From Smithellaceae bacterium (lineage in GTDB: Bacteria > Desulfobacterota > Syntrophia > Syntrophales > Smithellaceae), in NCBI GenBank assembly GCA_030690945.1, contig JAUYFM010000020.1:1-52194 (forward strand): 52,194 nucleotides of DNA, in the 5' to 3' direction. The position numbers and the translations under genes are program-made. The notes under the pieces are model-generated. The model was not told the DNA's origin. It saw only the letters and a list, made by a program, of their open reading frames with translations, and ran no database searches. How positions within the stretch are numbered: position 1 is the stretch's first letter; each line of letters starts with the position of its first letter. Shown piece by piece: positions 11,140 through 37,447 of this stretch.

Positions 11140-11148
11140 AAAAACCAA

Positions 11149-11233
11149 ATTCGGGGTGGCAGGAGGATTTGCTCCTGTCTGAGATTATACCCGTTGAACC
11201 TGATCTGGGTAATGCCGGCGTAGGGAGAAATAA
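11149..11233 (+). ncRNA. TPP riboswitch (THI element)
   Basis: The conserved TPP aptamer pieces are present: TCGGGGTG near the 5' end, CTGAGATTATACCC, GAACCTGATCTGGGTAATGCC and GTAGGGA at the 3' end. It precedes thiM and is followed by an intrinsic terminator, so it should shut off thiM-thiE when thiamine pyrophosphate is abundant. GGAGAAA (11224-11230) at its 3' edge can pair with TTTCTCC (11250-11256), which would disrupt the terminator stem, a plausible antiterminator. Confidence 0.93.
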
Positions 11234-11243
11234 AGATGACTTT

Positions 11244-11281
11244 AAACCCTTTCTCCTTGCAATGGCGAAGGGTTTTTTATT
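11244..11281 (+). terminator. Riboswitch-controlled intrinsic terminator
   Basis: AAACCCTT (11244-11251) pairs perfectly with AAGGGTTT (11268-11275), followed by a T-rich run. It lies between the TPP aptamer and the thiM start at 11308, the expression platform position. Confidence 0.85.
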
Positions 11282-21074: not shown

Positions 21075-21186
21075 TACCAAGTTGCATTCAAAGGGTAACA
21101 AATCAATGTAGTCCGAACCTTTAGGTTCGCGTGTTTAACGGGTCTAAAGACCCATACTACTGTTGACTTTTGACGGCGACTTGGTA
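21075..21186. mobile_element. 112-bp MITE-like element, copy 1
   Basis: It starts TACCAAGTTGCATTCAAA and ends GGCGACTTGGTA, so the outer TACCAAGT/ACTTGGTA ends are inverted repeats. It is flanked by TTA on both sides (21072-21074 and 21187-21189), a target-site duplication. The interior has two small palindromes, AACCTTTAGGTT and GGGTCTAAAGACCC. The second copy at 29346-29457 has exactly the same length. No coding capacity; it would need a transposase in trans. Confidence 0.8.
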
Positions 21187-21215: not shown

Positions 21216-22523
21216 TTGAAACAGACTGTTTTGAAACGATTAACGAATGTCGTTGCAATGGCGGCATTAATTTGTGCAGTAACGGCGCCACTCCAGGCAG
21301 AGGAACGAGCCGTCACCCTGCCGGAAATCATGGCAATCGCTACGGAGAACAACGGTGATTTGAAGGCACTCCGCGAAGAAGCCGGGATCGGTGAAGCCGG
21401 AAAAATCAAGGCTGGTCTTTATCCTAATCCGGTGTTGGATCTGGACGGTGCAACCGGTGCCATTACCGGTAGTCCGTACGAGAACCGCTTATCCATCGGC
21501 GTATTCCAGGAATTTTTGATTGGTGGCAAACGGGGGAAACGGCTGGCCGTGGCTGAATCTGAACTGATGAGGTTCGGCAGCCGGATCAAGAATGCGGAAC
21601 GTCTGCTGTTGCTGGAGGTGAAGACAGGGTTTTACGATCTTCTTCTTGCGGAAAACCGCCTTGAGCTGGCGCACAAGTTCCGTGAACTGAACAACCAACT
21701 CCTGCAGATAACCAAAGAGCGGCTGGCTGCCGGTGATATTGCGGAACTGGACGTTAACCTGGCTAGAGTGGAAACCGCCCGTAGTGAAGGACGAAAAATC
21801 GAAGCGGAGCGCGAGGTTGTCCCGTCACGCCAGCGGCTTCTCGCTCTTATGGGGGTGACTGCTTTGACCGATCTGAAAATTGCCGGCTCTCCGGCGACGA
21901 AACCGTTTGTTACAAATCCTACGGAACTCAAGGCTCTGGCCCTGAAAAACCGTCCCGATCTGCAGGCGTTGGCATCGGAAAAGAACAAAGGAGAGGCGGA
22001 ACTCACCCTGGCTCAGGCCGAGCGGCTGCCCAACGTAACGGCAGGGATTGCCTTCAGCCGTGAAAGGTCGCTGATCTCCGTCGGCGGCGGTATGGATGAT
22101 AGGTCCACCGACTATCTGATCGGGCTGAAACTCTCAGTCCCGATTCCGTCCTTTGATCGGAATCAGGCCGGCATAAAAGAAGCCCAGACAAGAAAAAGCA
22201 GCGCTGAAATTCGACAGGCGTCTGTCCGGCAGAGTATTGAGCGAGAGGTGGAGGCTGCGCATGCGCGACTTGCCGCTACGGAAAAAGCGGCTAACATCTA
22301 CGCCAAGGAGATACTTCCGCAACTCACTGAAAACCTTAAGCTGGTACAGGAGGCTTATCGCTTGGGCGAGGTTGGAATTTTGGCGGTGATTGAGGAACAG
22401 AAGAAATTTGTCGAGGTGAATGACGCTTATCTCACTGCGCTTTACAATCGAAACAGTGCGGTCGCAAAATTGGAGGCTGCCGTGGGAGTTGAATTGAAAA
22501 AAGAAGACGGAGGAAATAAATGA
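21216..22523 (+). CDS. TolC-family outer-membrane factor (CzcC/CusC-like), operon 2
   Basis: This 435-residue protein starts at a TTG with GGGAGG ten bases upstream; no ATG fits. The signal peptide ends at LQAEE. OEP repeats begin VTLPEIMAIATENNGDLKALREEAG and GLKLSVPIPSFDRNQAGIKEA, followed by long helices. It is the outer-membrane channel for the second tripartite efflux system. Its end overlaps the adaptor start by 4 bp. Confidence 0.9.
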   Translation: MKQTVLKRLTNVVAMAALICAVTAPLQAEERAVTLPEIMAIATENNGDLKALREEAGIGEAGKIKAGLYPNPVLDLDGATGAITGSPYENRLSIGVFQEFLIGGKRGKRLAVAESELMRFGSRIKNAERLLLLEVKTGFYDLLLAENRLELAHKFRELNNQLLQITKERLAAGDIAELDVNLARVETARSEGRKIEAEREVVPSRQRLLALMGVTALTDLKIAGSPATKPFVTNPTELKALALKNRPDLQALASEKNKGEAELTLAQAERLPNVTAGIAFSRERSLISVGGGMDDRSTDYLIGLKLSVPIPSFDRNQAGIKEAQTRKSSAEIRQASVRQSIEREVEAAHARLAATEKAANIYAKEILPQLTENLKLVQEAYRLGEVGILAVIEEQKKFVEVNDAYLTALYNRNSAVAKLEAAVGVELKKEDGGNK

Positions 22524-29152: not shown

Positions 29153-29295
29153 TTTACACTGATCATAACATTATGAAAGTCATCGAAAAATGGAATGGAG
29201 TACTTTCTCAGGCAACAGGCGGAGGAGCCATGCCCCTGATTGATTTGGATCATGTAGCAAAAAAGATTATACCTTAAAATGAAGGAGGCCCTGCT

Positions 29296-30237
29296 GTGAC
29301 CTCCTTCTGGGTGACGCTTGCCGTGCTGTTCGGCGTGGGTGTTTATACCAAGTCGCATTCAAAGGATAACGAACCAACGTAGTCCGAACCTTTAGGTTCG
29401 CGTGTTCAACGGATCTAAAGACCCGAACTACTGTTAACATTTGAATGCAACTTGGTATTACTACTTCTACGGCCAATCCAAGGCGATGGAATTTTTTGCC
29501 GGTTATCTCATTGAATACTCTCTGAGCATCGACCATTTATTCGTATTTATGCTGATTTTCCGCTTTTTCAAAGTGCCGCATGAATATGAACACAAAGCCT
29601 TGTTCTGGGGAATCTTGATGGCGCTTGTGACACGCGCCGTCTTCATCTTTGCGGGCGTTGCGCTCATCAATACCTTTAGTTGGGTCATGTATGTTTTCGG
29701 GGCTTTCCTGGTTTTCACCGGCATCAAGATGGCGCTCAACAAACAAACGGAAGTTCATCCCGACCGGAATATCGCGATAAAGCTTTTGCGCTTCTTCGTC
29801 CCCGTGACAAAACAATTTTCCGGCGCCAAATTTTTTATTGTTAAGCGCGGGGTGCGATTTGCCACACCGATGCTGGCTATCCTTGTGGTACTGGAAACAC
29901 GGACATTCTGTTCGCAATTGATTCCATTCCAGCCGTGTTGGCTATCTCCAAAGACCCTTTTATCGTTTATACATCCAACGTCTTTGCGATTTTAGGTCTG
30001 CGTTCTCTATTTTTCGCGATTTCCGGTTTGATGAAATTATTCCACCTTCTGCATTACCGCCTGGCGGCGATCTTGAGCTTTGTCGGCGTAAAAATGCTCA
30101 TTGAAGATTTTTTCCATGTGCCCGTTGCAGCTTCCCTGATGGTGATTGCCTCCATTCTGGTCGTATCGATTGTAACATCCATTATTTTGCCGGGAAAAGA
30201 AGAAGGTGAAGTTCCTCAGGTAGCGATGAAGAAGTAG
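29296..30237 (+). pseudogene. terC: TerC-family membrane protein, interrupted
   Basis: It begins at GTG 29296 after AAGGAGG (VTSFWVTLAVLFGVGVY), is cut by a 112-bp element at 29346-29457, then resumes YYFYGQSKAMEFFAGYLIEYSLSIDHLFVFML in the same gene. Removing the element and one TTA copy restores a continuous frame (GVGVYYFYG). A second lesion near 29897-29900 (GAAACACGGAC, where ET-T-DIL is expected) shifts the frame by one base. The downstream frame then continues DILFAIDSIPAVLAISKDPFIVYTSNVFAILGLRSLFF to a normal end. TerC proteins are multi-TM proteins linked to tellurium or metal handling. With two lesions it is probably dead. Confidence 0.88.
29346..29457. mobile_element. 112-bp MITE-like element, copy 2, inside terC
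   Basis: Same length and ends as 21075-21186: it starts TACCAAGTCGCATTCAAA and ends TTTGAATGCAACTTGGTA, flanked by TTA at 29343-29345 and 29458-29460. This copy has longer, better-matched terminal inverted repeats (about 18 bp). Interior palindromes GAACCTTTAGGTTC and TCTAAAGA are conserved. The insertion splits the terC frame after the GVGVY codons. Confidence 0.88.
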
Positions 30238-37248: not shown

Positions 37249-37261
37249 GTGATTCACTCTT

Positions 37262-37356
37262 GCAATCCCTCCGCCGGTATAACCCGGATCAGGTATTGAG
37301 GGTCTTCCGCTTTTTCCGCGGAACTCTCAGGCCGAAAACACGACCTCCCCTTATGC
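37262..37356 (-). ncRNA. TPP riboswitch of the thiazole operon
   Basis: Minus-strand sequence contains AAGGGGAGG near the 5' end, GCCTGAGAGTT, then CCTCAATACCTGATCCGGGTTATACCGGCGGAGGGA, the conserved TPP aptamer (the last element is quoted in parts: ACCTGATCCGGGTTA, CCGGCGGAGGGA). GCATAAGGGG at the aptamer 5' end (plus-strand 37347-37356) can also pair with CCCCTTATGC in the terminator arm, a likely antiterminator. It regulates thiE-thiS-thiG-thiH-thiF. Confidence 0.93.
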
Positions 37357-37447
37357 GTTTGTGAATGCTTCATAACCATATCTTTCATTTCCTGTCAATA
37401 ACCGGGTTTTCAATGGCTGGTAGATCGGCGCGTTAGCTGTGTCATCT

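Follow-up and report, generated by a model that had tools for sequence, protein, structure and literature searches.

The terC membrane-protein gene in the 52,194-bp window that we analysed (contig C53 of a 3.15-Mb Smithellaceae genome in 69 contigs) is split by a MITE, a 112-bp non-coding element that lies between two copies of a TTA target duplication. We infer, with a probability of about three in four, that an IS630-type transposase moved this element by cut and paste into a TNA site of the gene. A sister genome retains the empty allele, and many further copies with the same kind of ends are present in this genome.

The terC element has the typical structure of a MITE. Its left end (TACCAAGTCGCATTCAAA) and the complement of its right end (TACCAAGTTGCATTCAAA) agreed at 17 of 18 bases, with one mismatch, and the pairing of the two ends extended to 26 nt at 88%. 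The single-strand fold reached z scores of -5.6 with DNA parameters and -6.6 with RNA parameters, and none of 200 shuffles folded as well. At its gathering threshold, Rfam gave no match to the element. Translation from GTG 29296 yields 28 residues before a stop within the element, and no copy carries a transposase of its own. All 30 complete copies in the genome are shorter than 500 bp (99-148 bp); 14 aligned copies were 94% alike. The initial annotation had described a non-autonomous mobile repeat of 112 bp with 18-bp inverted ends and a TTA on both sides, and this description is well supported by the ends, the copies and the duplicated target. The coordinates of the features are collected in Table 1.

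Table 1. Features of the interrupted terC gene and of the MITE copies in the window
Feature	Position	Strand	Basis or remark
terC pseudogene (PF03741)	29279..30237	+	Pfam match, frame comparison with relatives
Junction of ~107-bp loss relative to intact relative, at 4-bp AAAA repeat	29276..29282	+	removes gene start
One-base loss relative to intact relative	29298..29298	+	comparison with 97%-identical gene
TTA target duplication, left copy	29343..29345	.	flank comparison, empty site
112-bp MITE, subfamily alpha, splits terC	29346..29457	+	copies, ends, flanks
Left terminal inverted repeat, 18 bp	29346..29363	+	
Internal hairpin 1; no 18-bp tip insert here, present in some other copies	29385..29400	.	
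Internal hairpin 2; tip bare here, 18-bp insert in some other copies	29410..29425	.	
Right terminal inverted repeat, 18 bp	29440..29457	-	
TTA target duplication, right copy	29458..29460	.	flank comparison, empty site
One-base loss relative to intact relative, the frameshift of the initial annotation	29898..29898	+	97%-identical gene, frame change against 12 proteins
Second window copy of the MITE, subfamily beta, TTA/TTA flanks	21075..21186	+	upstream of 435-aa ORF 21216-22523

Searches of the genome at the DNA level and by end pattern yielded 35 places. Thirty contained complete copies and were measured; the other five (L041, L042, L048, L068 and the end of contig C33) were incomplete or composite and did not enter the counts. 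Ends with up to three mismatches occurred 35 times in forward and 31 times in reverse orientation, while the reversed control pattern gave none in either. The same kind of ends bounded all 30 complete copies. Their bodies were in 25 cases that of the terC element (112, 130 or 148 bp), in two cases of a 143-bp type, in one case 121 bp and in two cases 99 bp long. Equal 3-bp flanks were found in 29 of the 30 (TTA in 12, TAA in nine, TGA in four, TCA in three and TCG in one), so that 28 of these 29 conformed to TNA. The exception with unequal flanks was a diverged 148-bp copy (TAA/TCA). Because the middle base varies between copies and agrees within each copy, the flank lies outside the element and is a TNA target duplication. 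The initial annotation had named two outcomes that would speak against it, an absence of further copies and a TTA that belongs to the element in every copy; instead, copies are numerous and the middle base is variable, which rules out the flank as element sequence. A plain TA duplication with outer bases equal by chance is also ruled out, because it would require eight bases at the empty site, where the 97%-identical relative has a single TTA.

Two ORFs of the window, 29441-29995 and 29935-30237, matched TerC (PF03741) above the Pfam cut-off, and this genome had no TerC match besides these. The search covered 59 genomes, counting the present one; 50 had a TerC match, 48 of them over the cut-off; most carried an open frame across the whole domain, with a few partial ones (G008, G028, G030 and weaker matches). 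When the element and one TTA were removed, the joined flanks matched 29 of 35 terC loci through the junction. Most of these matches carried one gap, which in the best of them (97.2%, genome G015) is the base loss near 29298. The G015 gene has a single TTA at the junction and an intact 317-codon frame, and thus represents a natural empty allele in a sister genome. Frames were also compared with intact proteins of relatives, of which 12 out of 30 loci were counted as well oriented (L205, L208, L210, L213, L214, L215, L218, L222, L224, L226, L229 and L230); many of the others gave an antisense frame from the automatic frame choice, and the count also omits L202, L221 and L225, which aligned in the correct orientation at 33-46%. 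Nine of the 12 proteins aligned also to the left of the element, where L210, L214 and L218 had no match. Seven of the nine shared exactly one codon across the element and two overlapped by four codons, and all 12 changed frame again at about 29899.

Compared with G015, the terC gene of the window carries four lesions: a loss in the start region, a missing base near 29298, the MITE and a missing base at 29898. The loss near 29282, of about 107 bp, removes roughly the first 30 codons together with the likely start, and the missing stretch is present in the frames of other relatives too. GTG 29296 is thereby ruled out as the native start. The one-base loss that had been noted near 29898 could be placed at that very position by the comparison with the 97%-identical gene. 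The further statement that removal of the element with one TTA restores the terC frame is correct locally, as the seven proteins with one shared codon indicate, but does not extend to the whole gene, where three further lesions persist. Because of these three lesions besides the MITE, terC in the window is a pseudogene.

The gene might already have been dead when the MITE landed, which would make the element a harmless late guest, a reading compatible with an IS630-type mover. We give it a little less than an even chance. The three other lesions in the same gene are in its favor, as is the ratio of replacement to silent changes, which was 5:3 on the branch of this genome and 2:6 on that of the sister, counts too small for significance and taken after exclusion of 60 gapped codons and three unpolarised changes. 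However, the lesions carry no relative dates, and in apparent age the terC copy does not stand out from its subfamily. The insertion may have started the decay or may have fallen into a dead gene. It is also conceivable, although very improbable, that the two one-base losses are errors of sequencing or assembly, which would leave the insertion and the larger loss as the genuine changes. The assembly is fragmented into 69 contigs, and the sequence was taken as deposited. Yet two such losses fall in one short gene together with two other lesions, neither lies within a long run of a single base, and the neighboring long ORFs (1026, 332 and 326 aa) are open.

The 25 copies with the same body included two tight subfamilies. 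That of the terC copy contains three mutually identical copies; a single substitution, located in hairpin 2, separates the 112-bp terC copy from them. The subfamily of the second window copy includes identical sets of four and of three copies. Identical copies within the subfamilies mark a recent multiplication, and together with the empty site in the sister species they are in line with the initial description of the insertion as recent, although movement and timing are deduced from similarity between copies and carry no date. A 435-aa ORF (21216-22523) starts about 30 bp downstream of the second window copy, next to ORFs of 509 and 1026 aa; the latter two resemble parts of an RND efflux system. 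This MITE copy could influence expression.

Similar ends are found well beyond this genome. An exact scan with a degenerate end pattern through a genome collection of 84,980 species returned 70 stretches. The titles of the assemblies concerned read Syntrophaceae, Smithella, Smithellaceae, Deltaproteobacteria or delta proteobacterium, and in one case Desulfobacterales; viral contigs gave no match to this pattern. In the examined loci, such ends bounded bodies of 65 to 256 bp. We distinguished 113 end pairs, 109 from relatives and four from this genome. The 3-bp flanks were equal in 82, all of them TNA, and unequal in the other 31, of which 13 had T.A on both sides. Some of these 31 pairs are probably mispaired. 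By its ends and its TNA duplication, which recur around different bodies, the terC element can be counted as one of a large Smithellaceae MITE set. It offers, at the level of a single gene and with a natural empty allele, a case for a MITE set that extends across a family of mostly uncultured syntrophic bacteria.

The search for full-length elements with the same ends, which the initial annotation had proposed as a route to the transposase, did not succeed within this genome, where ends with up to three mismatches belonged to short elements, incomplete copies or contig ends. No insertion sequence with TACCAAGT ends was found in this genome, although one could lie unseen in the breaks of contigs C33 and C63. 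A looser end pattern, TNA-TTCCAA, occurred at contig edges in two relatives, as expected for multicopy elements, and led to elements of 1112 bp in sister genomes. In these elements, an N-terminal ORF (170 aa, winged helix) overlaps a DDE ORF of 192 aa, with PF13592 and PF13358 matched. The DDE ORF exceeded the cut-off of the IS630 family model NF033545 in both of the two cases tested. In the test for an IS630-type DDE transposase, PF13358 was found in L328 and L331 and NF033545 above its cut-off in L328, L331 and L359; a further element type of 1124 bp also matched NF033545. In L350 and L351, two candidate copies from sister genomes, both reading frames are open throughout. Five IS630 copies had both ends, and their flanks were TAA/TAA in three, TTA/TTA in one shortened copy and TGA/TTA in one. 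The 2-bp TA duplication that characterizes IS630 elements was not seen in these copies. Five MITEs of 122-123 bp with the same TTCC ends carried, on both sides, TGA, TAA, TAA, TTA and TTA.

An IS630-like element with ends of the TACC class was found in G025, where it was detected at the protein level, with the DDE ORF profile, rather than through its ends. The right end of this element, L353, precedes a TAA and agreed with that of the terC element at 16 of 18 bases, while 200,000 random 18-mers reached at most 13. Taken together, these observations suggest the following course of events. A DDE transposase of the IS630 family, encoded by an insertion sequence that is absent from the assembled genome as searched, would have recognized the MITE ends and excised the element. 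The excised element would then have been joined to a TNA site in terC, and filling of the staggered cut by the host would have left one TTA on each side. Several findings weigh against this account. A profile built from three sequences gave no IS630 match at E 0.001 in this genome and matched in only 10 of 51 family genomes, whereas the MITEs spread wider. L353 is damaged: runs of N interrupt it, its left flank lies at a contig end, and its pieces scored E values of 9.3e-4, 3.6e-16 and 2.6e-5 against NF033545, all below the family cut-off. The unequal flanks of one of the five IS630 copies and of the 31 end pairs above, as well as those of a 250-bp pairing of TTCC-type ends (L302), also count against it. 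Single TTCC-type ends that resemble the IS630 elements of the relatives occur in this genome at L062 701-783 (C56:48276) and L068 701-772 (C63:78495), where their starts precede MITE copies by 64 and 53 bp. From this resemblance, they are possible remnants of the partner.

The TNA duplication is typical of the IS1031 group of the IS5 family. A transposase of a different family, such as this group, might therefore move the MITE, and the likeness to the IS630 ends would then be convergent or due to chance. This alternative is unlikely, although the duplication itself agrees with it and PF13340 was matched in one of 59 genomes, G025, which is also the home of the IS630-like L353. The other 58 genomes, including this one, gave no PF13340 match; within 3.1 kb around the match (L131), no TACC or TTCC end with fewer than two mismatches was present; and the IS630 elements combine similar ends with TNA flanks. 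An IS5-type transposase with PF13340 was accordingly rejected as the candidate mover. Transposases with PF01609 were rejected as well, as no paired ends were located around a transposase at the 30 loci scanned, out of 94 places matched in 51 genomes, a sample that covered one of the four places in this genome. L269 and L287 showed single ends with one mismatch each and no partner. The one exact end, in L286, is part of a distinct MITE that neighbors an unrelated insertion sequence. That insertion sequence (L286 1324-2615, in G024) is bounded by perfect inverted ends of 19 bp and contains a 318-aa ORF that matches PF01609, and it adjoins the MITE-like element.

The terC element is a MITE of a known kind, and the three-base TNA duplication is unusual for an IS630-type mover. 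The RUP element of Streptococcus pneumoniae, in the available part of the source, is described as a MITE thought to be moved in trans by IS630-Spn1; it resembles the terC element as a 107-bp non-coding sequence in many copies whose ends are common with an IS630 insertion sequence (PMC2229807). Compared by description, RUP targets contain TA (PMC2229807), whereas the terC MITE duplicates TNA and its partner was not found in its own genome. The Correia or NEMIS elements of Neisseria, according to the same partial account, occur in forms of about 107 and 155 bp that differ by an internal segment, with terminal inverted repeats and TA at the termini (PMC2229807); described side by side, the terC MITE family changes in steps of 18 bp at the tips of either hairpin and duplicates TNA. 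Chunjie of Geobacter uraniireducens is likewise reported, in the accessible text, as a gene-interrupting MITE of variable size in dozens of copies, but it is 235 bp long, and the likeness is one of description and not of compared ends (PMC10969869).

Published IS630 members count against an IS630-type mover in that they duplicate TA and not TNA, so far as the available text goes (PMC2170065, PMC8533490). ISY100 of the IS630 family belongs to the transposase family of the presumed partner and moves by cut and paste, yet 34 of 39 of its products were TA duplications where the terC MITE has TNA (PMC2170065, in part). Sailor, of the DD82E type, was described in the available portion as duplicating TATA instead of TA, so the duplication is variable within the IS630-Tc1-mariner group; the likeness is by description, with four bases in Sailor and three in the terC MITE (PMC8533490). 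Neither an IS630 element with a TNA duplication (PMC12795559 and PMC9330008 included) nor a Smithella MITE was found in the open-licence literature, which was covered mostly at the level of listed entries. In that literature, joint text matches of IS630 and TNA referred to tna as the name of an operon. Since the described IS630 members duplicate TA and the duplication here is TNA, the presumed IS630 partner would be a variant. This points to IS630-type transposases that leave TNA where described members leave TA, and the spacing of strand transfer may shift within one transposase family.

The variation in length among copies with the terC body involves an 18-bp palindromic unit, with the consensus CGYGTGACCTTYAGGTTA, that is present or absent at the hairpin tips of otherwise identical MITE copies. 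Among the 25 same-body copies, 17 had bare tips; the insert was confined to hairpin 1 in two copies and to hairpin 2 in four, and a further two had it in both hairpins (the copies listed for the unit are L049, L051, L063, L064, L039, L067, L053 and L061). Filled L049 was identical to bare L040, L044 and L062 at all 112 other positions. The same held for L063 against L045, L046, L058 and L060, and for L067 against L069. The unit also occurred within other MITE bodies, in other palindromes and in its own center, giving rise to nested forms. Within 400 kb sampled from this genome, the unit core had 21 matches with up to two mismatches, against none for the reversed control, and 17 units had paired arms (unit loci L378, L379, L382, L384, L385, L390, L391, L393 and L394). 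At 10 of these 17, the flanks paired at 7-8 of 8 positions, compared with 6.5% of random places. The window itself contains no such unit.

Outside this genome, the core was matched 18 times, against two for the control, in 517 kb of family loci that had been chosen for MITE ends. A 391-kb sample from 20 relatives contained eight paired units; a single genome accounted for seven of these, partly as an 18-bp tandem array, as seen at L430 of relative G024. No paired unit was found in 297 kb from 20 genomes of other families of the order. REP and REPIN sequences, in the part of the source that was available, are short palindromes tied to a RAYT transposase (PMC3116915); they come into consideration as a comparison for the 18-bp unit alone. 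We tentatively suggest, at slightly under even odds, that the MITE family carries a second, smaller mobile or copied unit, in view of its exact presence or absence at hairpin tips, its fit into unrelated bodies and its nesting within itself. If this is true, a copying process would use the hairpin tips as its target, and perhaps also as its template, and would be recorded by filled and empty tips on identical MITE backgrounds, and the unit would bear on the spread of very small repeats.

Elsewhere in the window, two TPP riboswitches scored above the Rfam gathering score, at 11142-11244 on the forward strand and at 37250-37361 on the reverse strand, and a match to a group II intron (Rfam Intron_gpII) was located at 936-1006, near the left end.
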